Source: Baffinella frigidus
Lineage: Eukaryota; Cryptophyceae; Cryptomonadales; Baffinellaceae
Assembly: GCA_026770585.1 (NCBI GenBank)
Contig: MU646396.1
Span: 707,754 to 732,232 of the forward strand
Reading direction: 5' to 3'
DNA: 24,479 nucleotides
Below are positions 3,965 through 24,170 of this stretch, in pieces; positions within the stretch are counted from its first letter, which is position 1; the number at the start of each line of letters is the position of its first letter. The notes under the pieces are model-generated. The model was not told the origin of the DNA, did not search any database, and saw only the letters and a list, made by a program, of their open reading frames with translations. The position numbers and the translations under genes were made by a program.

Positions 3965-4700
3965 CAACCCCAGAAGGAGGCAGGCAGGGTACGCTGCAGA
4001 TCTGGGAAACGGAGGAGAGGAACTCCACACCCAAAAAATCTCAACCCTCCGCCCTACGCCCTAGAACCCTAGATCCAGCCCCCCGAACCCCAGCCCCAAG
4101 GAGCCAGGAGGAGGAGGGGGGGTTCGTTCCGCTGCTCCCTGATCTAGGAAAGGAGGAGGAGAACACCGAACCAAAAACATTCTGAACCCTACGCCCTCAG
4201 CCATAGATGCAACCCCCCAACCCCAGGGGGGAGCCGGAGGGGCTGCTCGCTCGTGTGGAAGGTGGAGGATGGGGAAACCAAACTCGAAATATTCCTCAGC
4301 CCCAACCCCAAGCCCTCAACCCTAGATCCAACCGCCCAAAATATTCTCAACCCTAACCCCTAAACCCTAACCCCTAAATCCTAGACCCAAACCCCCAAAC
4401 CCAAAACCCAGGAGGAGGCGGGCGGGGTGCGGTGCTCGCTGGTGTGGGAGGTGGAGGATGGGGAGACGGTCACCTTCACGGGAGAGCCTCAGGCTAACGT
4501 CAAGGCCGCGCGCCAATCGGTCCCATTCCGTCCCGCCCGTTAACACTTGTCAACCAGAAATCCTTTAGATGGACGCCGGTGTGAACCAGCAATCCTTTAA
4601 ATGGACGTCTGCACGCTCCTCTGGAAAGCGGAGGATTGGGTGACTTTTACGGGGGATCCTGGGAGTACCGGTACAGCCGCGCGCCAGTCGGTGTGCCTCC
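3965..4700 (+). repeat. Duplicated exon-like module, up to five decayed copies
   Basis: A module reading EEAGGVRCSLVWEVEDGET at 4412-4468 (preceded by a CCCAG acceptor) has degenerate relatives at about 3972-4020, 4103-4160, 4220-4275 and 4604-4700. The last shares the following protein-like part too (VTFTGEP versus VTFTGDP, then AARQSV in both), so the duplicated unit was at least 90 bp. Copies are separated by telomere-like CCCTAAA/CCCCAAA tracts. The best copy could be an upstream exon of the Xrn-like gene, since a phase-0 donor GTCACC follows it. I do not recognise the domain. Confidence 0.55.
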
Positions 4701-5247: not shown

Positions 5248-5480
5248 ACGGCGCGCGTCGCGCTCGAGGCCCTCGGGGAATCCGTGGATCTCACTGCCGA
5301 TCTCAACGCGGTCTCGTCCGGATCCGCGTCCGAATCGGACGAGACCGAGGACGAGATGGGGGACGTGATCAACGGGATAAGAGACGTGATGGGCGAGGGG
5401 GGCTTGATGAATGAAAGGGACGTGATGGATGGGGAGGCGGTGGAGGGGTTGGTGGAGTCTGACCCGGAAGCCGTTTTCGG
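5248..5480 (+). other. Gene A acidic exon 1 of those found
   Basis: The acceptor ATCCGCAG precedes ACG (reads TARVALEALGE). The exon runs through an Asp/Glu/Ser/Gly-rich stretch (SASESDETEDEMGD) and ends phase 2 in VF plus two bases of a Gly codon at donor GTGAAA. Joining to 5984 completes Gly and continues LEGEDDEEG. The donor region GAAGCCGTTTTCGGGTG is repeated at about 5578-5594, an echo of this exon's end. In Xrn proteins a variable charged linker precedes the YLEGL segment, which fits. Confidence 0.65.
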
Positions 5481-8400
5481 GTGAAAACCCCAAACCCTCT
5501 GACCCTGTACCCTAAACCAGCTTAGCCTATCCTCAACTCTTGAATATTCAACCCCAAAATCAACCCCCGAAACCCAGAAGCCGTTTTCGGGTGGGCTCAC
5601 CCTAAACCCTAACCCCAAAACCCCGAATCCCAAACCCCAAACCCTGCTCCCCAAACCCCAGACCCAAAACCCTAAATCCAACCCCCAAAACATTTAAGTC
5701 CCTACACCCTAAACCTGAACCCCAAACCCTAACCGGAGGAGGAGGATGACGACGAGGATCTCATATGGAAGCAAACACAATCTATGAATTAGATTCAATG
5801 AAATTCACCACACAGAACGATCCTTCATTGTAATATTCAAGCAAACGTGGCGTAATTTTGATTGAAATCCGGTTTATAAATCATAAGTGTTTCCATATGA
5901 GATCTGTACGCGGAGAATCTGCTCCCCAAACGCTAAACCCTGACCCCAACCCAACCACACTAAACCCTGCTCGCCAACACCAGGCTGGAAGGAGAGGACG
6001 ACGAGGAGGGGATGGACGCGGACCTGGGGGGGTCATCTCAGGATGAGGATATGGACGATGAGATCGATGATGACTTGGGGGATGAGAGCGACCTCGACTC
6101 TCTGGTGAATCCCTCAACCCTCTCAGCTTGATGCCGTGCCAAACCCTAAACCCTGGACCCTGAACCCTGAACCCTGAACCCTGGACCTTGAACCCAGAAC
6201 GCTGTGCCCTGAACTCGATGAGAGCGACCTCGACTCTGAGGTTATCACTTCAGGCTTTTCTTTGTGAAGGGCTTTGTTTTTAGTTATTTTGGGGTTCAGG
6301 GCACCGTGTTTAGTTGTTTGAGGGTTTGGGGGGGTATGGACGCGGACTTGGGCGTCGGGTTGAGGGTTGAGGATTTAGAGCTAGGGTTGAGGGTTGCGGA
6401 TTCAGAGATTAGGGTTGGGGCTTTGGGCTTTAGGTTTGGGGCTTTAGGCTTTAGGCTTTAGGGTTCAGGATTTGGGGTAGGAAGACATGGATGAGGACCT
6501 CGACTCGGAGGTACGACGAAACACCAAACCCTAAACTCAGAACCCTGAACGCTAAGCCCTAAATCCCAAACCCTAAACTCTACACCATGGACCCTAAACC
6601 CTAAACCCTAAACCCTAAACCCTAAACCCTAAACCCCAGACCCCAAACCCTAAACCCTAAATCCTACACCCTACACCCTAAACCCCAAACTCCAAACCCT
6701 AAACCCTAAACCCTACTTCCTAAACCCTAAACCCTAAACCCTAAACCCTCAAACCTAAACCCTAAACCCTAAACCCTAAACCCTAAACTCAAAACCCTAA
6801 ACCAAAAACCCAAAAAACAAAAAAACAAAACAAAAATTCAAACCTCCAAAACCCTTAACCTAACCGCAAACGTGTGGGCAGGGGGGGCTGCGCGATGCGA
6901 AAACCGCAAGCGGTCGCAAGGCCGCATTCGGCATTGTTGAGTACTTTGAAGGTCCTACACCCTCTGCACTCTCATGTTTTTCTACCCTGAACCGAACCCT
7001 AAACCCTGAAGTTGAGAGTTGAGTGATGACGGCAAAGAGGGTTTAGGGTTGCAAGCTGACGATCCTGGTACTGAAACCGTCGACGTTTGCCGGTGGTTCA
7101 TTGTTTTCGCGCCGCGATAAACCCCAAACCCTGAACCTCAAACCCTGAACCCCAAACCCTAAACCCTTAACCCTTAACCCTAGACCCTTAACCCTAGACC
7201 CTAAACCCTAAAACCCAAACCCTAAAACCTAAACCCTAGACCCTAATCCCTAAACCTTAAACCTAACCCCTAAACCCTAAACCTGAACCCTAAACCCTAA
7301 ACCCTGAACACTGAACCCTAAACCCGCAGGAATCCTGTGGAACATTCAGATGTATGTGGATGGATTCGTGCCGGACTACCGCTATGTCTACCCCTTCCGG
7401 TTCCCCCCACCCTTACCCCGACCCCCAAACCCCACACCTTCTTACACCCTATTCCCTAACCCCCAAACCCTGGACCCTAAACCCTAAAAACCAACGCTAC
7501 GACTAACCTCTTCGGTTCCCCCCTCACCCTACACCCTACACCCTAACTCCGAAACCCTCAACCCTTCACCCAAAAACCCAAACCCAAAACCACAAACCAC
7601 AAACCACAAACCACAAACCCCAAACCCTAAACGCCAACCCAGCCATGCCCCGAATGCACGGCGCATCGTGCGGTGGGTCAAAGTCAGCGACTGAACCCTC
7701 AGCCCTAGACCCGAACCCCCAAACCGTTAACCCAAACCCCTTCACCCAGAACCGTAACCCCTTGATGCTAAATCCCGAAACGCCACCCCAGATACGCCAC
7801 CCCAGATACGCGAAGGATTGTGCGGAGGATCGAATCCAGTGACTGCGAACCCGATCCCTAATCCTTAGCCTCCAAACCGTTCACCCAAACTCCTACACCC
7901 AAACCTGTACAGCCAACACCTTAAACCCGTCATTCCAAATCCTTCAGCCTAACCCCCAAACACTATGCCCGAAACACTTGACCCAAACCGCAAAGGCTGA
8001 ACCCCCCTCGGTACCTGCAGGTATGCCCCGGACGCACGGCGGATCGTGCGGTGGATCGAAGCGAGCAACTTCGATCCGGATCCCGGGCCAGTCCTGCCAG
8101 TCTCGACGGCGAGCCCGCTCACGCCCGTGCAGGTGAGCCAACCCCCAAAACCCCGAAACCCCGAAACAAAAAAAATATCGACCAAACCCTAAACCCCAAA
8201 CCCTAAACCCCAAACCCCAAACCCCAAACCCCAAACCCCAAACCCCAAACCCTCAACCCCCAACGCACAACGCAGGCGTGCGTGTCGATGATGCCGCTGG
8301 GCGCGGGGAAGTACCTGCCGGAGCCTCTCAGGGTACCCCACCCCCGAAACACGCCCCGAACAATAAGGGGGAAACTCAAAACACGCCCCGAAACACTCTC

Positions 8401-11400
8401 TACCCCCAAAACCCCCCTCGAAAACATCCACAAACGAAACCCGCCTCGAAAAAAAGCATCTCGCCCCCGAAACATTCCTTGAAACAACCCCACTCCTCCC
8501 CCGAAACACGCCTCGAAACAGTACCTCAGGCGTGTATGCATGAGATCTCACCACACATCCTGATCACGTCCTGGTCACCCACCCAGGATCGTTGGGGAGG
8601 GTAGTTGGAAGATTTGGGATTCCTCTGCCATGGTAATTTCTCCTATGATTTCTCCTATCAAACAATGAAAATGGCTGAAATTTCAGCCAATGGCTCCAAT
8701 TTCAGCCACGGCATACCCCCCCCAAGGATCTTGCGTGGCACCGCGGTTGCGTCCTGCGTTAGATTTCTCCTCCCCTCCCCCACCCTGAGGGGTGGTCGCG
8801 GGCTGCTAAAGCCAGTCCGTCTCGGCTCACCGTACCTGCTGACGTGTCGCGGTCGTGTTTGACAATGTATTCAACCTCGCCTTCCCCCCTTTGCATCACC
8901 TGGCAGACGCGCCGGACTCGCCGCGCGCGCAGATGCCCGGCTAGAACGGCATCGACTTGGACGTGGAGATGCCCTAGTCCTTCTATGCCCCCCAAATGTC
9001 AGCATTCGATGGCGCGTAATCGAAACGACGCGATGTGAGCCTTACGACGCGTCCTCGTGTGCAGTATTTGGTGGACGCGCCCGACTCGCCACTCGCGGAG
9101 ATGCTGGGCGAGAACGGCATCGATTTGGACGTCGCCCTCCTCGTCAAGGTACGAGATCTGCCCGAGTTTTTCTTGGCTCTTCCGTATTTACATTTTCCGG
9201 GAAATAAGAGGGTGGAGTAGCAGGCGTTTTGTGTGGTAACATGATGTTCCCCCAATACCCACAAAAATCTGAGACCACATTTGTACAACAGAATTGAAAG
9301 TTGGTCCACAAATGTGATCTCAGATTTTTGTGGGTATTGGGGGAACATCTCCGGAAACGGGCCGCCATAAATTTTCGGTACATGAGGCGGGCCCATCCGG
9401 AGGAAAAAAAAGGTTTTCCTTCACTTTTGCCAACTTTTCCGAGGGAGCTATCGACAACTTTTGGTCTGCTACCCCACCCTCGGAAATAATCCAAATATAC
9501 AAAAAATCTCAAAATATTTTGTAAATGTATTCAACGAGGCGCCGAAATATACTCAGACACAGCTAGAGGTACGGGCCCACCTCTGGACATGCGATAGGCC
9601 CGTCTCTGGGCGTGAGATGGGCCCTAATACCGAAAGGACTCAGGGGTGAGCTGCTCAACGCCCTGACCGCTGGATTGTTTTTAAGGATAGGCCCGCCTCG
9701 GAACGTGAGATAGGCCCGCCTCCGTATCCTTAACCTCGTCGCGAGAAACCTCTCCACACACTTTGGACGTGTGTAGCCTTCCTCCAAACCCGAAACCCCG
9801 AAACCTGTCGGGTGTAGGGGCTCAGGGTTTGGAAATTGAGGTCTAGGGTTTTAAGGTTTGGAATTTGGAGTTCAAGATTTGAGGTTTGGGAGTTAGTTGG
9901 GGGGGTTGGGGTTTAACCGTTCAGTCAACTGTCGCGCAGGGGGCTCTATTGTGCGCAGCCTGACTACCGTTTTAACCAACAACCGTTTTAAGTAACCATT
10001 GTTCTTATTAACAGTCGTTTTAAACAACAACCGTTTTCAACATCAGCATCGTTTTAACCAACAATAGTTCTAAACAACAACCATTCTACGTAACAACCGC
10101 GGGCTATGTTGTTTTACATAACAATCGTTTTAAATCAAAACCGTTTTCAACCATGTTGGCAGGAAGTGGAGAGCGCAGAGCTGTCATCGCTCTCACCCGA
10201 GCAGCAGGCCGCCATCTGCCCCAACGAAGCCTGGACGGTACCCCCCCCCCCTCCCCGCTCCGTCACAGCCTATTCGGTCTCATCAACTCCCAACCCCTAA
10301 CCCCTAAACCCTAAACCCCAAACCCTAAACCCTGAACGCTACGGTACCACCCCCCAACCCAAAAGCGCCAAACGTGTTGGGTTGCTTGCTTGGCACTATT
10401 CCCCCATAAACGGCGCTTCCCCGCCGATAAACGGCGCTTCAAAATTCATGGACGGCTGTAATCCATAAATGGCGCTTCCCCATCTATAAACTGCTGGTAC
10501 AATTCCATCAACTGTGTTTCCCCATTTATAAATTGGTATAATCCATGAATGGCTGGCACAATTTAATAGGTCGACGTCCTGAAAACCGGGTAGTTTGGCC
10601 TACGGTATTGCCTGCGGTAGGCCGCAGGGCCCCCAGGACCTAGTGTTTCACAGGAACCCCCCCCAGGCCCCTTAGCTTAGCTTCGACAAACCATAACACA
10701 AAACCCGCCCCTAAGACAGCAAAAGGGCGGTTTAAATCGGATGGCTTTTTTCGTGTGGACGACCTTGACGGGGAACGCCGGACGCTCGCGGACTACGTGC
10801 TATCTCAAGGGTGGGGTGCTATCTTAAGGGTGGATTTTGTTGGGTTTGTGCTATCTTAAGGGTGGACTGTGCTATCTTAAGGGTGGATTTTGTCGGGTTT
10901 GTGCTATCTTAAGGGTGGACTGTGCTATCTTACGGGTGGATTTTCCCCTTGCGACAGGTGTTCTCGCGCGCGCCAGATGATCTTGACGGGGAATGCCGGA
11001 CGCTCTCGGACTTGCTATCTTCAGGGTGCATTTTCTCGGAGTTTGCTATCTTAGCTTCGACATATGTTTGCCATAACACCCCCCTAAGACAGCGAAACGG
11101 CGGGTGAAATGAGATGGCCTTTTCGTGAAGGTGTTTTCGCGGGCGCCGGATGATCTGGATGGGGAACGGCGGACGCTCTCGGACTACGTTCGCAGCATCG
11201 TCCCCACCACCCATCACCAGCGCATTCTCGTGAGCGCCTCCTTCTTCTTCTTCTTCTTTACTCTTGTTGGTTTGTGTGAACCATACACTCTAACTCCTAA
11301 ACACAAAACACGAAACACGAAACACGAAACACGAAAACCTGACCCCTAAACCCTGAACCCTGAACCCTGAACCCTGAACCCTGAACCCTGAACCTAAACC

Positions 11401-13317: not shown

Positions 13318-13980
13318 TAAATTTTCAAACGCGGCCGCGACGAGCTAGGGGGCGAGGTGAGACGAGACCTTCGTTCTTAATTTGAAGACTCCCTACCATT
13401 GCGCCCCAATGGGGAAATGGGGATTTTTCTTCAGAAATGAGGCTACATGTAACGTCTCCATCGGAACCGAACAACCTTGAGTTCCAGACAAAACAGTACA
13501 CCCAGTTACAATTGCAAGGAAATTGATTGGACCCGCGTTCACGAATGGATGTCTCAAGAGGAACTGGCTACAGGGGTACTTCGCTCATAAGAAAACGCCC
13601 CCCCCCTAGGACCACCATAGGGCCCTAGGCAAAGTCCTACTGTAGGGTCCTTAGGGGGCGCGGTTTCTTATGAGCGAGGTAACCCTGTAGTTTGGAGGAG
13701 GAGGTGAGGAGGTTGGAGGTGGCGAGGAAGTTGGAGGGATACCGCCCATGCTGTCGGAATTGGAGCTCTTTGCCGGCGCAATTTTAACAATCTGTACCAC
13801 GATAAGCCATGTAAACACTTTTAGCGTGGACGAGTGTGTGTGAAAAAGGAACTGACGTCCTGGCGTGGCTGTTCACTTTTGGCGCGAACGAGTGTGTATG
13901 AAAATCGGGGGGGAAGCGAGGTTTAATCAGTTGACAAACACGACCGCTTCACGCTATCTGATAGGGGGAGAGATGAGAGA
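13302..13980 (+). repeat. Gene A 3' end and a diverged echo of it
   Basis: The segment around the gene A stop (AAACGCGGGGTTTAATAA, TCAAACGCGGCCGC, GCTAGGGGGCGAGGTGAGA; 13302-13365) is echoed at about 13913-13978 (AAGCGAGGTTTAATCAG, ACAAACACGACCGC, ATAGGGGGAGAGATGAGA). Between them, CACTTTTAGCGTGGACGAG (13813) and CACTTTTGGCGCGAACGAG (13876) form another short duplication. Confidence 0.6.
13568..13690. mobile_element. Foldback/MITE-like element, intergenic
   Basis: CTACAGGGGTACTTCGCTC plus ATAAGAAAACGCCCCCC at the left is inverted at the right (GGGGGCG, TTTCTTATGAGCGAGG, AACCCTGTAG), giving imperfect arms of about 35 bp in a 123-bp element. The core is palindromic-like (CTAGGACCACCATAGG and CCTACTGTAGGGTCC). 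Confidence 0.7.
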
Positions 13981-14017
13981 TCCCCACTTGACCCACTTAC
14001 CCCGGCGTCCGTCCTTT

Positions 14018-14800
14018 AGGTTCTTTAGGTTTTAATTTCGCCCAACATATGCCAACGACACGCCCTTCCGTAGAAAGGACTGCAGAGAAAGCATTTTTGC
14101 TTTCGGATCGCGTTTAGCTTTCCAGTGCAGAGGCTCGTGAAGAGGGGATAAAGGGTTGGTTCTTTTGGGGTGTTTGAGCTATTCCAAAATAGGATCGCAC
14201 TCGCACACACACCGAACCACAAGTCAGCCTTTATGAGGCTCATGGTATCCCATGATTGAAGTATGAGCTACTGCAAAGCCACAGGGGAAGTCTCAATTTC
14301 TCTGGACACGACACTATTGTTGCCTTTTGACGATTTTTGGTCATGTCCTTGGGGGCAGAAATTGCCTTTTGACGTGAAAATGGCTCCAAAGTAGCGGAAG
14401 CATATGCTTTCGCTACTTTCTGAAACTTCCCCTGTGGCTTTTCAGTAGAGAGCTCCAACCACGAATACCTAGAATACCCCAGAGAGAAAACACGATTTCA
14501 AAAGTTATTTAGGTCCTTTAGGTTTTAATTTCTCCCAACATAGCCCAACGACACGCCGTTCCGTAGAAGGGATCTGCAGAGAAAGCATTTTTGCTTTCGG
14601 ATCGCGTTTCGCTCTCCAGTGCAGAGGCTCGTGAAGAGGGGATAAAGGGTGGTTCTATTGGGGTGGGTGAAGGTATGCGATATCGCTCCCATGCTCACTT
14701 ACACGCACCGAACCCAAGTCAGCCTTGTTCTGAGGCTCATGGTATCCCATGGTGAAGCATATGAGCTCCAGTCACGGATACCCCACAAGATTTCAAAAGG
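14018..14800 (+). repeat. Tandem direct duplication, unit about 290-300 bp
   Basis: Copy 1 (about 14018-14503) and copy 2 (about 14511-14799) share TTTAGGTTTTAATTTC, CAACGACACGCC, GCAGAGAAAGCATTTTTGC, GCAGAGGCTCGTGAAGAGG, GAGGCTCATGGTATCCCATG and a final GATTTCAAAAG. Copy 1 is longer because it contains the MITE at 14268-14448. Open frames exist on both strands but none has protein character in both copies, so I call no gene. Confidence 0.85.
14268..14448. mobile_element. MITE with 24-bp TIRs and an empty-site control
   Basis: Left end CTACTGCAAAGCCACAGG and right end CCTGTGGCTTTTCAGTAG are inverted over 24 bp with one mismatch. The interior has two TTGCCTTTTGACG copies and the near-palindrome AGCGGAAGCATATGCTTTCGCT (in two halves of 11). 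The second tandem copy has ATGAGCTCC where copy 1 has ATGAG, element, AGAGCTCC. The insertion is thus directly visible, with a probable 3-bp GAG target duplication plus one extra A. No transposase in the window. Confidence 0.85.
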
Positions 14801-15095
14801 TGTGAGTCAGATGTCAAACCAAACGATTTATGGAGCTTATGGAGCTTTAATGAACTTCGTACAGCAGCACACACGTTCCCACGTCCGGTGGACCGAAACG
14901 GCATGGTGAGCACAGAAGCGGGGGCTGGTCCTGGAGCTATAGCAGGTTTCGTTCACAGGCAATCCTGACGACCCTTACTTGGCGAACCCCCTTCGTCTTC
15001 CCGAAGTCGTCGTCCGTGCCCGGCTCTGGTCAAATATTTTCTTCCTCACAACTTTCACGCCAAAAGTGGCCTTGGTTGTAAGGAGTGAGTACAAA

Positions 15096-15247
15096 ATGGC
15101 GCGTGCTTCGCTCCTATGCCTCGTCCTCCTCTGTGTGGTCTCGCACGCAGCGGCGTTCTCTGTTGGACTCGCGCCACGAGGCTTCCTTGGCCGCGCCGTT
15201 CGCGCTGAGCGGAGAGCCCCTCGCGCATCAACCCCCGCGTCGCCCTG
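15096..15247 (+). other. Gene B exon 1: bipartite plastid-targeting leader
   Basis: MARASLLCLVLLCVVSHAAA is a typical hydrophobic signal peptide. FSVGLAPRGFLGRAV after it starts with Phe, the residue required at the transit peptide start in red-lineage complex plastids, and is rich in Arg and lacks acids for about 15 residues. Reading on without splicing gives a stop at 15294-15296. The donor TG|GTGCTC joins in phase to 15510 (K-MQVWSNNEA). Confidence 0.75.
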
Positions 15248-18200
15248 GTGCTCTGTCCCACCCAACCCTGCGACTGCGTCGAGGAACCGTTTGTGATGTG
15301 GGAATGGTTTGGGCTGGTGCTATCTAGGACCGGATGATCGTGAAAGATGGGACCGTGTATTTCCCCCACGGCATCCGCGATCTTGCGTCCAAACTTGACC
15401 TCTAGAGAATGATCCGCAGTCGAACCATGCCCTGCCTGACCTCGGGCGTGGCTCAGCAGAATGGCGGGCGCCCGGCTGCTGACGCGGTTTGCATGCACAC
15501 GCCTGGCAGGAAGATGCAGGTGTGGAGCAACAACGAGGCGATTCAGGAGTATCGGGACCTGCTGGCTGGGAAGCGCCAGGATGACACCAACGACGGTCTT
15601 GATCATTCTAGCTCTGTCTCAGTCTATTTGGGCTCACCAAATTGGTGAGCCCGGGCCCTTTCCCGCTCCACAGTTGAAGAATTTGTACCGAAACCCCAGC
15701 ATATCAATGTGAAAATAGTCGGTGATAGAGTGAGGCAAAGCTGGAGTTCCCCAGCGCGAGAGAGTCTAGCTAGCTCTGCCTCAGTCGGGTTCGCCGACTA
15801 CTCTCAAGTTGACATCCTGGATATTTGATACAAATCCATCAACTTCGGTGCGAATCACGGCCTGGTCTCATCAAATTGGTAGACAAAATAGACTTGAGAC
15901 AGCGCTAGGCTCCACGCATCGCCTGACCCTCAAGAGGTGCTAAACCCTAAACCATGAACCCTGAACCCTAAACACTAAACCCTAAACTCTGAACCAAGAA
16001 CCCTGAACCCTCAACCCCAAACCCTGAATCCTAAACCCTCAACCTCAAACCTTAAAACCCAGACACCAAACCATAAACCCCAAACTCCCAACCCTGAACC
16101 CAAACCCCAAACCCCAAACCCTAAACCCTAAACCCTAAACCCTAAACCCTAAACCCTGAACCCTGAACCCCAAACCCCAAACCCCAAACCCTACACCCTA
16201 CACCCTAAACCCTAAACCCTGAACCAGGCCCGAGTGTGATCATTGGCGACGGGCGCCTGGGAACGATGCTGCGCAATGCTGGTCCCCTAACCCTAAACCC
16301 TACACCCTAAACCCTGCACCCTAAACCCTACACCCTAAACCGTAAAGCCTAAACCCCAACCCCCCAACGATGCTGTGTAATGCCGGTCTCTAAACCCTAA
16401 ACCCTGCACCCTACACCCTACACCCCAAACCCTAAACCCTGAACCCTAAACCCTAAACCCGAAACCCTTAACCCTAGTCCCTAAATTCTAAAACCTAAAT
16501 CCTAAACCCTAAACCCTGAAACTCTCAACCCTAAACTCCAAACCCTAAACCCTAAACCCTGAACCCTGAACCCTAAACCCTGAACCCTGAACCCTAAACC
16601 CTGAACACCAAACCCTAAACCCTAAACCCTGAAGCCTACGATGCTGCTCAATGCCGGCCTGTCCCTCACTTGGCTCTGCACCAGATCTTTGCAAAAAAAA
16701 CCTTTCTCTCCGCTGTCGAGCGAGGAGGGAACAACTTAAAAGGGTTCAAGGACTTTTACCTGAAAGACAAGGCCGGATTCTGGCCCTGACTGCCTTCTAT
16801 GTGCCGAGTTCGCTCGGGAGCGGTACATCAGCTGTTTACAAGACACACATCGCAGTACACACAGCGGACTGCAAAGGGATTTCGGAAATGTCCCAGAAGT
16901 GAGTAACCCGCAGGACCCCTAGGCAGGCCTTCCGTATGGAGGGACATAGGGTTGTTCCTACGTGGTATCCTGACCGAAGCCCGGTGGCTGAGGCGCGAGG
17001 TTTCCCGTGGTAGTCCTGGGTGGACAGCCCTCTCAGCATCATTTCCTTTCACAACAGTCTTCTCCCCCTGCCGGGGCCTGGGGAGAGAGTCCTTCCACAC
17101 GAAACCTGCATGTTGGAGAACACGTGTAGGCCCCATACAACCGCGTGCAGGCAATTGCAGGGTCGATTTGAGGGCATGCGCCGCGTCGGGTGCAAGGGGC
17201 GGGGCAGGGGTCAGCTCCTCTGCATCAGCCGCTTTACACACCACACGTCCCCCCCTGCAGGGGGCAACTCAGGGGACGTGATCGTGAAGCGGGGGGATGC
17301 GATCCCCGAGGAGCTGGCAGATGGGGTCACGGACTTCCCGCTGTATGTGTGCGTGCCCGAGCATGAGGTCGAGGCCGTCATCAAGGTCCGTCCAACCGGG
17401 TCAGGTTCTAGGAAATGACAATTTATTGATTACAAGACCAGTATGACCACATTCTAGGACCCCCTAAGGGGGGTTTAGGGAGCGCAGGAACGAACCCTGA
17501 GCCGTGAACCCTACAAATGATCAGACCTTGATCGCTCATCACTCGGTTTCGGTACCTCCGGAAGCCCACACGGTTTTACGGCGGAGCTGACATACGCATT
17601 TCAGGGTGAGTTCGGAGACGGGTATTATAGGGTTGTTCCTACGGACAAAGGGGAAATAACTCTTATGGGGGATGTGTGCAGGCGTGTCCGCAATCGAAGC
17701 TGGACGATCTAGTGTTCTGCCAGAAAGGAAACATCGAGCTTCTCCTCAAGAAGTACGCCCTCTGTGGAAACGATAACACCCAGGTAACCCCAAATCCGAA
17801 AACCCTGAACCCTGAACCCTGAACCCTGAACCCTGAACCCTAATCCCGAAACCCCAACCCCGAAACCCAAACCCTGAACCCTAATCCCGCAACCCGCAAC
17901 CCGAAACTCGAAACCCCAATCCCTAAACCCTAAACCCTAAACCCGAAACCCGAAACCCGAAACCCTAAACCCGAAACCAGATGCTGCCGTACTTCTCAAT
18001 CTTCTCAAAGGAGTCGCGCCCCATGTCGGTACGCGCCTCTCGAAACTCCCTTTTCGCAACTTTGCTCGCACTCTCAGGGTTCCACACACTTGCTTTGTCT
18101 CAGTCTAGTTGGGCTGACCAACTTGGTGAGCCCGGGCTCTTTTCCGCTCCAATGGTGACGGGTTTGTACCGCAGTCCCAGCATGTCAACTTGAGGAAAGT

Positions 18201-19344
18201 TGATCAACCCGAGCGATGCAGGGCTCTACACAGCAGGCTGCGAAGGGATTCGTGGAAGCTGAGCCCCCAATAATACACAGCGTGCTACCAAGGGATTCTT
18301 GTTGGCTGAGGTTGGTTGGTTGGTTGGTTGGTTGGTTGGTTGAGTTTGGCAGGATAGTTGCCCGAACAAACAGACAAACAAACGAACAAACAAACAAAAA
18401 TGGAAAACCATAGGTCCCTACGGATTGCCTAGCTGAGAGTCCTATGGTTTATCACTGATGGGAACCCTGAACCCTAAACCCTAAACCCCAAACCCTAAAC
18501 CCTAAACCTGCATCCCCAAACCCCAAACCCCAAACCCCTAACAGGAGTTGGAGGACATGGGAAAAGACTCATTCGGGTCCCCGAAGTACGCATGGGAAAC
18601 AGTCTTTTGAAATTTTGGAATTTGAGATACAAGTCTTCTTTTCAATTTTGCACCCGGGTCCGAAATTCTGAGTAACAAATCGGACGTGGGGAGGACGTGG
18701 AGCTGCCTCTCACGCAGGACTGCACACTCATTCAGTAGCAGGGAACGAAGCGTTGCGTCCTGAGAATCAGACGAATGATCTGGCGTGGTAGGGGAAGGAC
18801 GCGTTGGGATCCCCCCAAGTACTCGGGGGGAGGCGCTATACCCTAACCCTGAACCCTAAACCCTTTTTAGGACACAGCCCCTAAACGCTAAACCCTGAAT
18901 CCTCAACCCCAAACATTATCCCCTAAACCCTAAACCCTCAAAAAGGAGTTGGGAGGACATGGGAAAGAACTCGTTCGGGTCCCCGAAGTACGCGGGGCAA
19001 ACATTTTTAAAAAAAATTGGGATTTCAGATACAAGTCGTGTTTTCAATTTTGTACCCGGATCGGAAATTATGAGTAACAAATCGGACGTGGGGAGGACGA
19101 GGAGCTGCCTCTCACGTGAAATTGTGACGAGTGGTCTGGCGGGGCAGGAGTTGGAGGACATGGGCAAAGACTCGTTCGGGTCCCCCAAGTACGCGGGCGA
19201 AACAGTCATTGTCGGCAAGTGGAAAGGCGCCCTCGCCCAGCGGTAACCATCAACCCTAAACTCTCAACTCTAAACCCTAAAATCTCAATCCTAAACCCCC
19301 CGGTAGGAAAGTGGAAACGGGCCCTCAACTCTCAACCCTCACCC

Positions 19345-19382
<38 letters not shown>

Positions 19383-19400
19383 GACCCTCGACCTTCGACC

Positions 19401-19431
<31 letters not shown>

Positions 19432-19456
19432 GACCCTCAACCCTCAACCCTCGACC

Positions 19457-19504
<48 letters not shown>

Positions 19505-22419
19505 CCTCACCCCCCACCCCTCACCCCTCAACCCCCCTGTTGGGACTTGAAGAGGAGAGAATGGCGGCGGGGAGACAAGCAGTGATGATGGGCCCGTGGA
19601 ATGGCGCCCTCGCGCAGCCGTTGGATGCGAAGTTCACCTGTCACCTCTCTGAGGCGGGGGGCAGGCTGGATCGGGGCCAGCTGCCCTGAGAACCACCCCC
19701 GCTTCCGGGACTACCGGCCTTTGATGCAGTGACTCCTGTGATGATTGTCGACGCTGCCGCACTTCTGTCGCAACCACTCGTGACACGCAATTGTGGCACG
19801 CCACGCGCTGTACCGTTGGTGGCCATAGAAGTTGAGTAAAAGATGCTGACACGTCCTTGTCGTGTCCTGATTTGTACGGGGCACGTCCTTTTAAAATCAA
19901 AGGCTCGTACGGACACGACCTGGACGGAAACTCACAGCAGAAACGAATGTGACCAGTAATCGGCTTGACGTGGGGAGCAGGCTGGACAGGATCCAGCTCC
20001 CCTCGCAGCCGCGCGGCTACCTCGACTACCACCCTTCGCAGTTTCCCCTGTGTAATCATGACGCAGAAACGATGGTGGCGTAAGCAATTCTGACGCGGAT
20101 TGCTGATGTGTGGGGAGCAGGCTGGACAGGATCCAGCTGCCCTCGCAGCCGCGTGGCTACCTTGACTACCGCCGCTCCATGATCGAACACACGGTACCCT
20201 CTTCCCCCGCGCGAGTGCTCACTGTATGGTTCGTGTCTGACTGTATTGTGCGTGTCTGACTGCCTTGTGTGTGTCTGACTGTCTTGTGCGTGTTTGACTG
20301 TTTTGTGCGTGTCCTGGGAACAAAGGCTGTGACTGTCTTTTGTGTGTACTGCGAACAAAGGCTGCTCGGATCAGTCATCGTCCCGGTGCACACCGTGCGC
20401 GGTTTAGTCATGGACACCCACAACGTTTGACTGAGGCACACCGAATCCTTTGAGAAGAGCTCGCGCTTCCCCGATCACTCGTGACGGCAGCGTGGCCTCG
20501 AAATCGCCTCTGCCAAAGTGGGCTTGAGCGCTCACTCAAACGTCACTTCCCCGACAACTTGCAAGTAGGTGTTTGAGAGCGTCGACAACCTCGTCGGACT
20601 TCTCCACGAACCCTAAACCCTAACCTCTAAATCCTAAACTCTAAATTCTAGACCCTAAACCCTAAATCCTCAACCCCTAAAATCCTCAACCCCTAAACCC
20701 TGAACCATCAACCCTAAACCCCAAACCCTACACCCTACACCCTACACCCTACACCTTACACCCTACACCCTACACCCTACACCCTACACCCTATACCCTA
20801 CACTCCATACCCTCCACCCTCCATCCTACACCCTCCACCCTCCACCCTCCACCCTCCACGCGAAACGCTCAACGCAGAAATGTTGGCGTGGATGGCAGGT
20901 GTTCGAAAGCGTGTACAACCTCGTGGGGCTCCTCCACAAGGGAATCCCGCTCGGAGAGGTCCGTGCCTTCCGTCAACAAATCCCGCGACTGTTGACTAAA
21001 ACGCGCTGGTTCGTACCAAGACGGTACCTGATCCGAGCAGGATTTGTACCAGGAATAGCAGAAATCAGTCAACTGCACCCTGGTTGGGCTTCTCCCCAAG
21101 GGCATCCCTCTCGGAGAGGTCCTTCCGTTGCCTCCGTAAACCTGGATTTGCCGAAAAACAATTTTCGGTTGAGGGTTTGTTGTGGAGATTCTGCCCTGAT
21201 TTTTTGGTACTAATCAGTGAACCGTCGCAGACCTCTCGAAGAGGTGCGCGCCGTCAGCGCACAAAGCCCCCGCGACAGTTGAGTAATACTGCCAAGTTGA
21301 CTGAATCAGGCAGGTGCAGTACGCCAGCCACATCGGTTCACGCGGTTGACCGTTTCACGCACAAGTTGACAATTTCACGTAAAAATGGGAGTGAGGCGTC
21401 CCGGCAAACGGGGATGCACCACCATTCGTTTCAAAGTTTGATCGTTTCACGTGACTCAACGGGGTTGCGGCGTCCCTGAACCCTGAATCTTAAACCCAAA
21501 CCCAAACCCTAAACCCTAAACTCTAACCCTAAACCCTAAACACTAAACCCTCAACCCTAGACCCTAAACCCTAAACCCTAAACCTTCAACCCTAAACCCT
21601 AAACCCTAAACCCCAAACCCTAAGCCCTGAACCCTAAACCCCAAACCCTCAACCCTAAACCCTAAACCCTAAACCCTAAACCCTAAACCCGGCAGGTTGG
21701 GCTGTACCACCAGAAGGAGTGCGAAGACATGATCCATGAGATGCACCGCGTACAACCCCAAATCCGAAACCCGAAACCCGAAACCCGAAACCCAAAACCC
21801 GAAACCGAGTCTCGAAACCCGAGACCCGGAACCCGAAACCCGAAGCCCGAAACCCGAAACCCGAAACCCGAAACCGAGATCCAAGACCCGAGACCCAAAA
21901 CCCGAGAACCTAAACCTGAAACCCACTCGGTGTGTTTCGGTTTAGTCTGGTCTGGTTTGGTGAGAGGTTCCTTGACGATTTGTGGCAGTCGTGCGCGAGC
22001 CCAGAACCCCGAACACCGAAACCCTAGACCCCAAACCTGAACCCCCACACCCGAAACTCGAAACCCGCAACCCGAAACCCGAAACCGATATCCGAGATCC
22101 GAAACCCGGAACTCGAAACCCAAAACCAGAAACCAGAAACCCGGAACCCGGAACCCGGAACCCGAATCCCGAATATCGAATCCCGAATTCCAAAATCCTC
22201 GTCCCTCGACCGCGCTCTCTCTCGTGCAGGCGCTGCGGGGGTCGATGGCGGGTGGAAGTGTGTTCCTTCACACACGCTACCCGAATCCCGAATCCCGAAT
22301 CCCGAATCCCGAATCTCGAATTTCGAATCCCGAATCCCGAAACCCGAATCTCTGGACCGCACTCGAGAGAATGCGCTGCGGGGATCGATGGCCGTCATGC
22401 TGCTGTCAGGGGTGGAGGG

Positions 22420-22451
<32 letters not shown>

Positions 22452-24170
22452 CCTCCCTCCCTCCCTCCCGCTCTCGCTGGCTTGCTCTCTCTGGGGCAAG
22501 CGCTTTCGCAAACCTGACTCACTCCCCCCCCCCCACCCCCCACCCCCCTCGCTCCCTCTCTCTCGGCCCTCAGCATTGCACCCTCTCTCTCTCACACACT
22601 GACCTCGTCGGGCTCATCGCACAGGCGCTGCGTGGGTCGATGGCCGTCACGCTGCTGTCAGGGGTAGAGGGGCGGTGCAAGGCGCTCTCGCAGAACACCA
22701 ACGTCGAGATGCGGAAGCCCAAGGTATTCTCCCATAAACCCTCACCCCTCAAGTCATACACCCTAGCTATTCGGACACGATTTGCTTAGGCTGTCGGCCT
22801 GAGCTCTCGTGGGTGGAGGGGCTAATGTGGAAACTCTTTTGATTTCAAAAACTTTGGCAATGAAATTTATTGCACAGAACGATCTTTACTAGTAAATATT
22901 CAAGCAAACGTGCAGTAATTTTCGGTGAAATCCATTTTTAAAAAACAAAAAAGTTTGCACATGAGGCAGTGCAAAGCGCTCTCGCAGAATCCCAACGTGG
23001 ACGTGTGGAAGCCCAAGGTCTTCTACCCCGAACCCTAAAACCTGAACCCTAAACCCTAAACCTTCAACCCTAAACCTATCCTCCTGCAAGGCCAAATAAA
23101 TAAGTCATGAATGGAGATTCGGTGTATTTTGCCAAATTTCGCCCCTAAATTTCGTCCGTTTTCAAATCTGAAAGCGCAGATCCTCGAGATTTGGCCTTCA
23201 GCTCCAGAATCTGCTAAAAAAATTCAAGCTGCGACGAAATCTTGAAATCTTTACTACAGGATAAAGGTCGAATAAATGGCTCCAACTAAAGTCATTATTC
23301 TGCTATTAGCCTTGCAAGAGGATAACCTGGAACCCTAAACCCCAACCCCGGAACCCAAAACACCTACGCCCTACGCCCTACACGCTAAACCCTAAACCAT
23401 AAACCCGATACTTGACACCCTACAAACTAACTACTCCCTACACCCCAACCCCTCCAAAAAAAACCTACTGCCTCAACCCTACACCCTACAACCTTTACCC
23501 TAAACCCTACAACCTAAACCCCACACCCTGAACCCTACACCCTAAACCCTGAACCCTAAACCCTAAACTCTAAACCCTAAACGCTGCACCCGAATCAGCT
23601 GGGGGAGTTCATGTGGTACAACGGATTCTTCTACAAGATCTCCCCGAACCCTAAACCAAAAACCAAAAATTCTGAACCCTAAAACCTAAAACCCTGAACC
23701 CTAAACTCTTAAACCCTAACCTCTAACTCCCAAATCCCAACCTGAAACCGAAAATCTAACCCCCTGAACCCTAAACCATAAACCTGAAAACCTAAACCCT
23801 ATACCCTAAACCCTAAACCCTAAACACTAAACCCTAAACCCTGAACCCTAAACACTAAACACTAAACCCTGAACACTAAACCCTCAACCCTTGACACTCA
23901 ACACTGAACACTCAACACTAAATCGTAAACCCTCATCGCTAACCCCTAACCCTCAATAAACGCTGCACCCGAATCAGCTGGGGGAGTTCATGTGGTACAA
24001 CGGATTCTTCTACAAGATCTCTCTCGACTGCAAGGAATTTGAAGTGTACGGCAAAAAGGTGCGTTTAGGGTTTGGGGTTTAGGTTGTAGGGTTTGAGGTG
24101 CATGGTTTGGAATGCAAGCGCAGTGTACGGCAAAAAGGTGCGTCTTGCGCCTACCGAACTTCAAACTTAA
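15096..24170 (+). CDS. Gene B: plastid-targeted Rossmann-type (ketopantoate-reductase/6PGDH-like) protein
   Basis: Exons: 15096-15247, 15510-15595, 16228-16281, 17261-17385, 17682-17783, 17981-18028, 19148-19242, 20121-20193, 20899-20958, 21696-21749, 22625-22723, 23978-24058, 24138-24170. They total 1062 nt, so 353 residues plus stop, with every GT-AG join in frame across 12 introns. Residues 1-20 are a signal peptide (LLCLVLLCVVSHAAA) with F21 after the predicted cut, then an R/A/P-rich transit-like region to about 50. VIIGDGRLG (83-91) is a GxGxxG nucleotide-binding loop. DVIVKRGDAIP, FPLYVCVPEHEVE and LDDLVFCQKGNIE follow, in the order seen in a conserved algal/plant Rossmann family. The second half (GKWKGALAQRLDRI, MIEHTVFESVYNLVG, EFMWYNGFFY) would be the helical domain. 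The reaction and substrate are not known to me. Kozak-like ACAAAATGG supports the start. Confidence 0.8.
15604..15705 (+). repeat. SINE-like repeat with palindrome, copy 1
   Basis: GCTCTGTCTCAGTCTATTTG, then the perfect hairpin GGGCTCACCAA-A-TTGGTGAGCCC (15630-15652), CGGGCCCTTTCCCGCTCC, TTTGTACCG and CCCCAGCATATCAA. Copy 2 is at about 18088-18193. A third partial relative is at 15761-15815 (TAGCTCTGCCTCAGTC, GTTCGCCGAC), and TCATCAAATTGGTAGAC lies at about 15868. Copies 1 and 2 each begin within about 60 bases downstream of a gene B donor site. Confidence 0.7.
15938..16226 (+). repeat. Intron 2 telomere-like array
   Basis: CCCTAAA with CCCTGAA and CCCCAAA sub-blocks runs straight into the acceptor CTGAACCAG of exon 16228. 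Confidence 0.9.
16228..16660 (+). repeat. Gene B exon 3 and two echoes of its 3' end
   Basis: The live exon 16228-16281 ends GAACGATGCTGCGCAATGCTG at donor GTCCCC. Echo 1 (16367-16388) reads CAACGATGCTGTGTAATGCC before GGTCTC; echo 2 (16636-16657) reads CTACGATGCTGCTCAATGCC before GGCCTG. Telomere-like arrays (16286-16365 and 16391-16633) fill exactly the spaces between copies. Each copy therefore restarts at the same place, as in a tandem amplification of exon end plus array. Confidence 0.8.
16661..17260. other. Non-repetitive part of gene B intron 3
   Basis: About 600 bases with mixed composition. TAGGGTTGTTCCTACG at about 16948 recurs at about 17628. No exon with protein character and matching phase seen. 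A pyrimidine tract CGTCCCCCCCTGCAG ends the intron. Confidence 0.5.
17261..17385 (+). other. Gene B exon 4 with two in-frame acceptors
   Basis: The acceptor CCCCCTGCAG at 17260 gives NAG-GNSGDVIVKRG; AACTCAG at 17272 gives NAG-DVIVKRG, four residues shorter. Both keep the frame. The first has the better pyrimidine tract. The exon encodes the post-G-box strand and FPLYVCVPEHEVEAVIK, donor GTCCGT. Confidence 0.7.
17440..17473. repeat. Short hairpin repeat, copy 2 of 2
   Basis: AGTATGACCACATTCTAGG followed by ACCCCCTAAGGGGGG pairs with the copy near 4727. It lies in intron 4. Confidence 0.6.
17796..17978 (+). repeat. Intron 5 is almost entirely a telomere-like array
   Basis: Intron 17784-17980 is GTAACC plus CCCTGAA, CCCGAAA and CCCGCAA units, ending CCCGAAACCAG. 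The donor and acceptor consist of repeat-like sequence, so the array is effectively the intron. Confidence 0.85.
18088..18193 (+). repeat. SINE-like repeat, copy 2
   Basis: TTGCTTTGTCTCAGTCTAG, hairpin GGGCTGACCAA-C-TTGGTGAGCCC with one mismatch, CGGGCTCTTTTCCGCTCC, TTTGTACCG and CCCAGCATGTCAA match copy 1 at 15604. Confidence 0.7.
18308..18400. repeat. GGTT and CAAA microsatellites
   Basis: (TTGG)n at about 18308-18341 and an AACA/AACAAACG run at about 18364-18398. They are flanked downstream by ACCATAGG...CCTATGGT (18411-18457), a short inverted repeat. Confidence 0.85.
18463..19000 (+). repeat. Two echoes of gene B exon 7 with telomere-like arrays
   Basis: Echo 1 (18543-18603) and echo 2 (18943-19003) copy the start of exon 19148-19242: GGAGTTGG-GGACATGGG, GACTC-TTCGGGTCCCC and AAGTACGC. 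Echo 2 and the live copy also share downstream intron sequence with echo 1 (ACAAATCGGACGTGGGGAGG near 18679 and 19077; GAGCTGCCTCTCACG). Arrays at 18463-18540 and 18838-18940 precede each echo. The duplicated unit is therefore array plus acceptor plus exon plus about 150 bp. Confidence 0.8.
19148..19242 (+). other. Gene B exon 7 (live copy)
   Basis: ELEDMGKDSFGSPKYAGE then TVIVGKWKGALAQ plus two bases of Arg; acceptor GGGGCAG, donor CG|GTAACC (phase 2). Only this copy retains both the 5' part and the GKWKGALAQ end. Further echoes of its end lie at about 19299-19322 (GGTAGGAAAGTGGAAACGGG) and 19590-19620 (CCGTGGAATGGCGCCCTCGC). Confidence 0.75.
19250..19535 (+). repeat. Homogenised CCCTCAA array
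   Basis: Over 25 CCCTCAA/CCCTCGA units dominate 19320-19530, a variant almost absent elsewhere in the window. Open frames across it are artefacts of the 7-bp period. Confidence 0.9.
19660..20193 (+). repeat. Gene B exon 8 with two upstream echoes
   Basis: The live exon 20121-20193 (acceptor TGGGGAGCAG) reads RLDRIQLPSQPRGYLDYRR then SMIEHT. Echo 1 (about 19662-19735: GGGCAGGCTGGATC, CCAGCTGCCC, GACTACCGGCC) and echo 2 (about 19974-20045: GGGAGCAGGCTGGACAGG, ATCCAGCTCCCCTCGCAGCC, CTCGACTACC) precede it. Echo 2 is about 90 percent identical over its first 60 bases by eye and keeps its acceptor. Confidence 0.8.
20228..20315 (+). repeat. Minisatellite GTGTCTGACTGTCTTGTGC
   Basis: About four and a half tandem units of 20 bp in intron 8, followed by a diverged GTGACTGTCTTTTGTGTG and two ACAAAGGCTG copies. 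Confidence 0.85.
20558..21120 (+). repeat. Gene B exon 9 with flanking echoes on both sides
   Basis: The live exon 20899-20958 reads VFESVYNLVGLLHKGIPLGE (acceptor GATGGCAG, donor GTCCGT). The upstream echo 20564-20610 (GGTGTTTGAGAGCGTCGAC, AACCTCGTCGGACTTCTCCAC) breaks off directly into AACCCTAAACCC. The downstream echo 21081-21119 (GGTTGGGCTTCTCCCCAAGG, CATCCCTCTCGGAGAG, then GTCC) repeats the exon end with its donor. Confidence 0.8.
20607..20862 (+). repeat. Intron 8 array: CCCTAAA to CCCTACA to CCCTCCA
   Basis: Three successive zones each dominated by one variant; the CCCTACA zone is about 20730-20810 and CCCTCCA about 20815-20860. Confidence 0.9.
21120..21476. other. Intron 9, non-array part
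   Basis: No exon recognised. Repeated GTTGAC/GTTTCACG motifs (AGTTGAGTAATAC, AAGTTGACTGAATC, GTTGACCGTTTCACGC, AAGTTGACAATTTCACG, GATCGTTTCACGTGAC) between 21275 and 21460 form a loose repeat family. Confidence 0.5.
21477..21690 (+). repeat. Intron 9 CCCTAAA array up to acceptor
   Basis: A long run of good CCCTAAA units ends CCCTAAACCCGGCAG, giving the acceptor of exon 21696-21749 (VGLYHQKECEDMIHEMHR, phase 0). Confidence 0.9.
21755..22350 (+). repeat. Intron 10 arrays dominated by CCCGAAA/CCCGAAT
   Basis: 21757-21925 and 22015-22200 are CCCGAAA, CCCGGAA and CCCGAGA units; 22280-22345 is CCCGAAT. The exon 21696-21749 donor GTACAACCCC runs directly into the repeat. Between 21930 and 22010 is a short non-repeat block. 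Confidence 0.9.
22424..22602 (+). repeat. CT/CCCT-rich microsatellite stretch
   Basis: (CT)n at about 22420-22446, CCCT repeats, poly-C runs near 22525 and further CTCTCT before the exon 11 acceptor. It provides a long pyrimidine tract. Confidence 0.85.
22819..22965. mobile_element. MITE-like element, copy 2
   Basis: The interior matches 5799-5870 (CACAGAACGATCT, ATATTCAAGCAAACGTG, AATTTTCGGTGAAATCC). The termini GGCTAATGTGGAAACT and AGTTTGCACATGAGGC form imperfect TIRs. The length is nearly the same as copy 1. It sits between exon 11 and its downstream echo. Confidence 0.6.
23025..23075 (+). repeat. Short telomere-like array
   Basis: CCCTAAAACCTGAA and CCCTAAA units follow the downstream echo of exon 11 and are interrupted by the next element. 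Confidence 0.8.
23078..23323. mobile_element. MITE-like element inserted in a telomere-like array
   Basis: ATCCTCCTGCAAGGCCAAT-like left end and its inverse ATTAGCCTTGCAAGAGGAT at the right share about 16 bp with one to two mismatches, plus weaker inner pairing (AGTCATGAATGGAG / CTCC...GTCATTATTC). Flanks are AACCT on both sides (23073-23077 and 23324-23328), a candidate 5-bp target duplication, though AACCT is common in this context. No ORF. Confidence 0.7.
23330..23577 (+). repeat. Intron 11 telomere-like array, part 1
   Basis: CCCTACA, CCCTAAA and AACCCCA variants, ending immediately at the exon 12 echo. Confidence 0.85.
23578..23642 (+). pseudogene. Perfect 65-bp echo of gene B exon 12
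   Basis: Positions 23578-23642 equal 23957-24021 base for base, covering 20 bases of intron with the acceptor (AAACGCTGCACCCGAATCAG) and the first 45 bases of exon 12 (LGEFMWYNGFFYKIS). After that the echo runs into CCCCGAACCCTAAA. The copy has no donor and would read into repeat-encoded sequence. Confidence 0.9.
23645..23956 (+). repeat. Intron 11 telomere-like array, part 2
   Basis: CCCTAAA, ACACTAA and ACACTCA variants fill the 314 bases between the exon 12 echo and the live exon. Confidence 0.9.
24043..24143 (+). repeat. Exact 22-bp direct repeat bounding the last intron
   Basis: AGTGTACGGCAAAAAGGTGC plus GT occurs at 24043-24064 and 24122-24143. Cutting at the AG|GT inside both copies gives a 79-bp GT-AG intron (24059-24137) and the reading GKK-VRLAPTELQT-stop. 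Unspliced, the frame ends at VRLGFGV-stop within the G-rich telomere-like tract (24064-24105). Confidence 0.8.

Follow-up and report, generated by a model that had tools for sequence, protein, structure and literature searches.

The window analysed here is the whole 24,479-nt stretch of DNA from the cryptophyte Baffinella frigidus. It carries two genes, A and B, on one strand (forward), together with telomere-like arrays and partial copies of exons; all features below are given in window positions on the forward strand. Gene B (15096..24058, 12 exons) encodes a protein of unknown function and ends beyond the window. We searched for its exon chain by letting each guessed exon end shift by up to 6 nt in either direction, taking AG as acceptor and either GT or GC as donor. 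Residues 1-343 of the transcript-derived protein P0001 were reproduced by a single 12-exon chain, the last donor excepted, and every donor in the chain is GT (12 GT–AG exons). The exons fixed by P0001 are 15096-15247, 15510-15595, 16228-16281, 17261-17385, 17682-17783 and 17981-18028 (exons 1-6) and 19148-19242, 20121-20193, 20899-20958, 21696-21749, 22625-22723 and 23978-24058 (exons 7-12). The 11 complete introns are bounded by the splice sites of these live exons. After exon 12, P0001 reads VDMPDPMSMHSEY...; a tblastn search of the window matched neither this sequence nor the residues past 343. The concatenated exon protein gave 10 protein matches at E ≤ 0.001, including P0001 (source label mmetsp) and P0002 (T484DRAFT_1782187, a deposited protein of Baffinella frigidus), which are near-identical proteins with one member sequence each. 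An initial assignment of the window to Chromera velia was given up once these matches indicated a cryptophyte. No Pfam family matched the gene B protein at E ≤ 1, and we read its start as signal-peptide-like.

Gene A (5248..13317) was outlined from open frames, splice-like ends and a weak XRN match. Its exons are tentative and some may be missing; their approximate ends are 5248-5480, 5984-6104, 7330-7399, 8021-8131, 8276-8331 and 9065-9148 (exons 1-6) and 10163-10237, 11131-11231, 11614-11707, 12466-12509 and 13005-13317 (exons 7-11). For three of these ends our scripts used 7390, 8020 and 13009. Weak similarities suggest that gene A may be the C-terminal part, about half, of an XRN-type 5'-3' exoribonuclease. 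It matches Pfam XRN_M at E 0.045, below the family cut-off. Chains of 5'-3' exoribonuclease 2 also match (E 1.5), behind two chains of SATB1 with E 0.006 and E 0.04, which we took for chance matches. Two protein searches for homologues of gene A gave zero matches.

We compared the 23 exons with the window by blastn, with telomere-like runs masked, and obtained 25 non-self matches at E ≤ 0.05. All of the strong matches (15 of 15 at E ≤ 1e-3) lie on the same strand as the source exon and in an intron that flanks it, so that they are direct and close to their source as in tandem genomic duplication. Counting weaker matches, 20 of the 25 lie on the same strand in an intron adjoining the source exon. 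The five found elsewhere come from exons A1 (twice), A2, B6 and B9 and all have E ≥ 0.017; the A1 match at 4446, which precedes the first exon seen, might be counted as a neighbour. These partial copies of exons are genuine and far exceed chance, and the claim of the first-pass annotation that introns of both genes carry partial copies of neighbouring exons was thereby borne out. Their geometry is regular. The exon end next to the host intron is reached within 8 nt by 18 of the 20 neighbour-intron copies (18 of 21 if the A1 match at 4446 is classed as a neighbour), so that copies in the upstream intron represent the 5' part of the exon and copies in the downstream intron the 3' part. None of the 20 is full length. 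A2 nt 25-45 and A8 nt 18-59 depart from this pattern, although the A8 copy has matching intron sequence upstream. The exon portion of each blastn match is 16-64 nt long, with intron flank present in some; in alignments the homology runs beyond the splice site at B12, B8, B11d and A8u1, and the copies stop mid-exon and give way to unrelated sequence. The matches and alignments agree with the earlier observation that the splice acceptor or donor is often inside the copy. We also prepared a hand catalogue of 24 copies, which takes in the 20 neighbour matches except the internal piece of A2 and adds five weaker copies (A1, A2, two of B3, and B7).

The copies of gene B exons (named u or d for the upstream or downstream intron) cover a wide range of decay. 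Exon B3 has two copies of its 3' end, at 16366..16386, between arrays, and at 16635-16655, which were recognised from a 104-nt repeat unit and alignment and not by blastn. Intron 6 holds three copies of exon B7: B7u1 (18545..18607, exon nt 1-63, 89% identity, E 8e-18), the more decayed B7u1b (18774..18830, seen by alignment, with a tblastn match at 18756-18827 of E 0.54) and B7u2 (18946..19003, nt 1-57, 88%, E 4e-14), which belongs to a 165-nt direct repeat shared with the B7u1 region. In intron 7 there are B7d1 inside arrays (19303..19326, nt 64-87, 83%, E 0.017), B7d2 (19577..19618, nt 53-94, 79%, E 3e-6), B8u1 (19665..19716, 5' part, 69%, E 0.004, with a stop in its translation) and B8u2 (19981..20033, nt 1-53, 92%, E 4e-16). 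Exon B9 is represented by B9u in intron 8 (20569..20607, nt 1-39, 82%, E 6e-7), which ends on a CCCTAAA array, and by B9d in intron 9 (21076..21118, nt 18-60 plus the donor, 84%, E 8e-9), with no array between it and the exon. Intron 10 contains the short B11u1 (22230..22249, nt 1-20, 95%, E 0.002) and B11u2 (22373..22419, nt 1-47, 91%, E 4e-13), which runs into a CT microsatellite; intron 11 contains B11d (22965..23017, nt 47-99 plus the donor, 85%, E 3e-12). Two copies of exon B12 are identical to their source. B12u (23578..23642) comprises 21 nt of intron and exon nt 1-44, 65 nt in all, followed by an array (100%, E 1e-15 over 44 nt). B12d (24122..24143) repeats over 22 nt the end of the exon and the donor GTGCGT (E 0.014 over 16 nt) and is preceded by 57 nt of filler, most of it G-rich telomere-like sequence.

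Copies of gene A exons are of the same kind. Exon A4 has two copies of its 5' part (7645-7688, 84%, E 7e-9; 7800-7847, 73%, E 3e-5), and exon A6 has one (8901..8964, 84%, E 1e-15) that contains an in-frame stop and is separated from the exon by no array. The 5' part of exon A8 is found twice (10757-10798, 86%, E 6e-9; 10958-11012, 87%, E 5e-14). Between these two copies, at 10797-10944, lies a 53-nt non-telomeric minisatellite, which implies that other filler can occupy the same place as the arrays. Fragments of exon A2 were found by blastn at 6217-6240 (3' end) and 6332-6352 (internal); a further copy of its 3' end at 6481-6510 was seen by eye and could be a small real exon. At about 7505-7535 visual inspection showed a sequence resembling the 3' end of exon A3, donor included, which is outside the catalogue. 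The described series of decay is thus present in the window, from 69% identity with stops up to identical, and introns holding duplications of varied ages that include exon edges are supported in both genes. Outside the called exons, a 103-nt direct repeat (86%) lies between the genes at 14080-14182 and 14574-14676.

The transcript-derived protein and the deposited one treat these copies differently. All intronic copies of gene B are absent from P0001, while P0002, whose start and end differ from those of P0001, counts four of them as coding: B7u1, B7u2, B8u2 and B11d. For instance, LDRIQLPSQPRGYLDYHPSQ, encoded at 19982-20041 in the B8u2 region, is counted in P0002, and B11d supplies its residues 346-363. 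The corresponding insertions are absent from three other aligned homologues. Since the exons fixed by P0001 skip every intronic copy, the gene B copies are relics; splicing of the copies as genuine exons, which would have spoken against the first-pass annotation, was not seen in this transcript-derived sequence. In five exons with two copies, 9 of 9 changes on which both copies agree and the live exon differs are silent when read in the live frame, and therefore the live exon is the selected one. The copy at 24122 had been described as a copy of an exon 12/13 boundary, and we also considered it as a newborn intron. Both readings were rejected, since P0001 continues otherwise, and the copy is instead a relic that repeats the exon 12 end. 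Neither the 11 complete introns of gene B nor the 24122 copy uses a duplicated AGGT as donor and acceptor of a new intron, and no complete second exon used in RNA was found (0 of 20 copies full length; P0001 without copies, for gene B).

We then related the copies to the telomere-like arrays, defined as CCCTAAA-like runs of 14 or more nt on either strand with one mismatch permitted. Arrays make up 19.6% of the window. An array of at least 14 nt lies between copy and live exon for 14 of the 24 catalogued copies, and random placement in the same introns would give 15.9; the ten copies without an intervening array are A6, A8 (two), B7u2, B8 (two), B9d, B11u (two) and B11d. The arrays between copies and exons that the first-pass annotation emphasised are therefore present in a majority of cases, but not always and not in excess of random. 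Over 22 introns, the number of copies per intron rises with intron length (rho 0.68, p 0.0005), and no relation to array fraction was seen (rho 0.15, p 0.49). Intron 5 of gene B (17784..17980, 197 nt) is 81-91% telomere-like and has no catalogued exon copy. The truncated ends of the copies behave otherwise: 9 of 24 abut arrays against 4.4 expected (P 0.0086), and the mean array fraction beside them is 0.31 against 0.14 (P 0.0016). At exon 12, identical direct repeats (65 and 22 nt) surround mostly telomere-like filler. This signature of a staggered break, identical short repeats plus filler, is clear at the two exon 12 copies; the other copies are diverged.

For comparison we sampled thirty 10-kb stretches of the same assembly at fixed positions. 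Of these, 21 were unreadable throughout and one (366 bases) was dropped, leaving eight usable stretches with 43,839 bases. Repeat families were counted once per pair, so that the following pairs are not independent events: 125 near-direct (<1.5 kb), 9 far-direct, 26 near-inverted (23 of them in stretch L027) and 7 far-inverted. Near-direct repeats occur in seven of the eight stretches, with none in L018, and cover 0 to 36% of a stretch, compared with 12% of the window. Neither Pfam scans nor mismatch patterns linked these repeats to exons. More array does not go with more direct-repeat cover across the eight stretches and the window (rho -0.6, p 0.09); one stretch at 21% array has zero near-direct pairs, and L027 at 0.3% array has 37. 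Breakpoints were examined in 98 thinned pairs from L005, L007, L009, L024 and L025. An array abuts one copy only in 14 of the 98 against 12.7 expected (P 0.39), which is no excess, and both copies in 9 of the 98 against about 0.6 expected. The excess at both copies implies that arrays were copied along with the neighbouring sequence. A raw count of repeat ends near arrays in the five stretches (45 against 18.1 expected) had looked like an association, but the excess was lost after setting apart arrays shared by both copies. Mismatches between repeats elsewhere carry no reading-frame signal overall (110 pairs, P 0.87) and only L024 reaches P 0.039, in a weak test that gives P 0.13 for the window itself. 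No Pfam domain was found in the six whole frames of L005 or of L024. L027:2485-6225 contains a dense direct-repeat family of about 125 nt, with many inverted pairs too and almost no telomere-like sequence.

Our preferred interpretation, which we hold to be likely, is that splice junctions were repeatedly duplicated, locally and in direct orientation, and that the exon fragments in introns are the relics left after selection. Such duplications would span tens to a few hundred bases, with one end in an exon and the other in the neighbouring intron, and each event would copy the splice junction plus part of the exon. Splicing would retain the copy with the whole exon, and the half-exon with one splice site would remain in the intron and decay. 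Duplication of a whole exon, or one wholly inside an exon, would alter the protein and be selected against, and this would account for the predominance of junction-bearing fragments. The CCCTAAA-type arrays would be abundant passengers, carried and multiplied by the same duplications. At exon 12, insertion of telomere-like filler during the repair of a staggered break would leave identical repeats such as those seen. The copies, their geometry, their absence from P0001 and the local direct repeats elsewhere were observed directly; we infer the selection filter, the break-repair step and a common cause for the repeats elsewhere. The two of 20 matches that break the geometry count against this interpretation, and our confidence in it was lowered very slightly because L018 is without near-direct repeats and the frame test elsewhere was without a working positive control. 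A single-split model, with upstream and downstream copies as the two halves of one broken exon, suited B11 (nt 1-47 and 47-99) and was rejected at B9, whose upstream and downstream copies both cover the same 22 nt of exon and are not identical to one another.

An excess of silent differences over the dead-on-arrival expectation remains as an unexplained anomaly and also counts against local duplication as we describe it. In 20 alignable blocks, 56 of 130 differences change an amino acid, where dead copies should give 77.9; by gene, the figures are 16 of 43 (25.7 expected) for A and 40 of 87 (52.2 expected) for B. The catalogued copies A1d, A2d2, B7u1b and B7d1 were never in this substitution test, and six blocks were dropped: B3d2 and B8u1 (misaligned or gapped), A2d, B12u and B12d (no differences) and B11u1 (a single difference). 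In the 14 remaining blocks 37 of 98 differences are amino-acid-changing, compared with 56-63% in dead-on-arrival simulations that assume copies to evolve at the live-exon rate; 0 of 300 simulations were as low at each setting. The deficit persists with one block per exon and when any one of the seven exons is left out (largest P 0.005, without A8). Letting the live exon change at twice the rate of the copies weakens it (P 0.017), and at four times the rate it is gone (P 0.36). Upstream copies have it (23 of 71 amino-acid-changing), and downstream copies alone do not (14 of 27 against 56% simulated, P 0.38). In the simulations, live silent sites evolving about four times faster than the copies, or copies under partial constraint, would fit the deficit.

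This anomaly bears on several other explanations. The copies might be retired exons, once complete as alternative or duplicate exons, translated for a time and later truncated. The deficit, present in upstream copies and not in downstream ones alone, is what such a history would leave, but no copy is full length and P0001 contains none; private changes in the triples are 17 amino-acid-changing and 17 silent, a mix that could likewise arise if silent sites of the live exon changed faster. We regard this history as improbable. Alternatively, two haplotypes or diverged gene copies might have been joined in tandem at repeat arrays during assembly, and the silent-site excess would fit two coding copies. 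The assembly of repeat arrays is difficult, and the window contains 139 N. Against such an artefact, which we consider very improbable, the copies break mid-exon into unrelated sequence, their identity spans 69 to 100%, and P0001 and P0002 have one member sequence each, so that the search showed no close second copy. That the copies are in present use as alternative exons, as the deposited model with its four included copies would have it, is hardly credible given that P0001 is without all of them and the three other aligned homologues are without the insertions. Somewhat less remote, though we think it rather unlikely, is an extension of local duplication itself: that it proceeds genome-wide and at a high rate as a growth ratchet, extending introns at exon edges, with splicing rendering half-exons harmless and some copies translated and then retired. 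If this were true, introns would archive dated snapshots of their own exons, and the silent-site excess would mean that some copies were once translated exons and that exons have been shifted and replaced within genes.

The first-pass annotation had proposed one coupled event as the origin of arrays and copies, in which broken exons are mended by telomere-like filler together with template re-copying. The truncated ends at arrays (9 of 24) and the identical repeats around mostly telomere-like filler at exon 12 argue for this, and telomeric insertions with flanking duplication have been reported in rodents and primates (PMC2246262). However, arrays are placed between copy and exon no more often than at random, copy number does not follow array fraction, one-copy array ends show no excess in the five other stretches, arrays at both copies are as expected for co-duplicated arrays, and L027 has its 37 near-direct pairs with almost no array. 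The proposed coupling is thus mostly unsupported by copy number, placement and other stretches and keeps support at the truncated ends in the window; we judge it unlikely. The results lean towards exon copies being no commoner where arrays are present, an outcome that had been named as refuting the proposal, and the copies themselves are unaffected by it.

Tandem genomic duplication and break repair have both been reviewed as sources of introns (PMC3443670). The duplication of AGGT-containing segments described there resembles our case in being a local direct duplication in coding DNA with the excess spliced out. It differs in that here existing introns lengthen and an existing junction is spanned, with no new intron seen to arise. 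In Daphnia, repeated staggered breaks lengthen young introns (PMC4202315), which is similar in the direct repeats of exon edges within introns and in the repeated rounds of lengthening. However, the exon-intron repeats described for Daphnia are 4-12 bp, whereas here 16-64 nt of exon are involved and the introns are not known to be new. Telomerase-inserted interstitial telomeric sequences are likewise internal telomere-like arrays, sometimes with flanking duplication; telomeric insertions at breaks with such duplication are given for 6 of 130 loci in rodents and 4 of 25 in primates (PMC2246262). The arrays here differ in being variant-rich and mostly away from duplication ends. The window combines known kinds of event (tandem duplication, break repair, telomeric insertion) with longer exon pieces. 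One open-access library gave zero papers linking interstitial telomeric sequence, introns and exon duplication and, by title, none on telomere-like repeats in algal introns. For Baffinella sp. CCMP2293 a genome of 534.5 Mbp, with 41.1% repeats and 6.1 times that of Guillardia theta, is given in PMC9756366. The window preserves, in graded steps, a possible course of intron lengthening in an algal genome, a much enlarged one if the window is from CCMP2293, and intron growth via local duplication becomes testable exon by exon. It is also a warning that gene models in such genomes can take dead copies as coding, as with the four in P0002.

The arrays themselves are strongly oriented. Among runs of at least 21 nt in the window, 73 are C-rich and 7 G-rich. 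Orientation is also one-sided over kilobases within several other stretches and flips between them (C-rich:G-rich 1:14 in L005, 8:2 in L007, 35:0 in L009, 1:9 in L018 and 3:27 in L024), with L025 mixed (0.016 against 0.021 of bases). Local direct copying alone would suffice to produce such one-sided blocks. Selection against the AG-rich orientation in introns is a possible alternative cause, AG being present at 0.52 per 100 nt in C-rich arrays and 4.81 in other intron sequence; with genes A and B on one strand, the two causes are inseparable here. Some arrays consist of locally uniform variants, namely CCCTCAA at 19322-19534, ACCCTAC at 20711-20859 and AACCCGA at 21754-21924, and these uniform units suggest local amplification after arrival.
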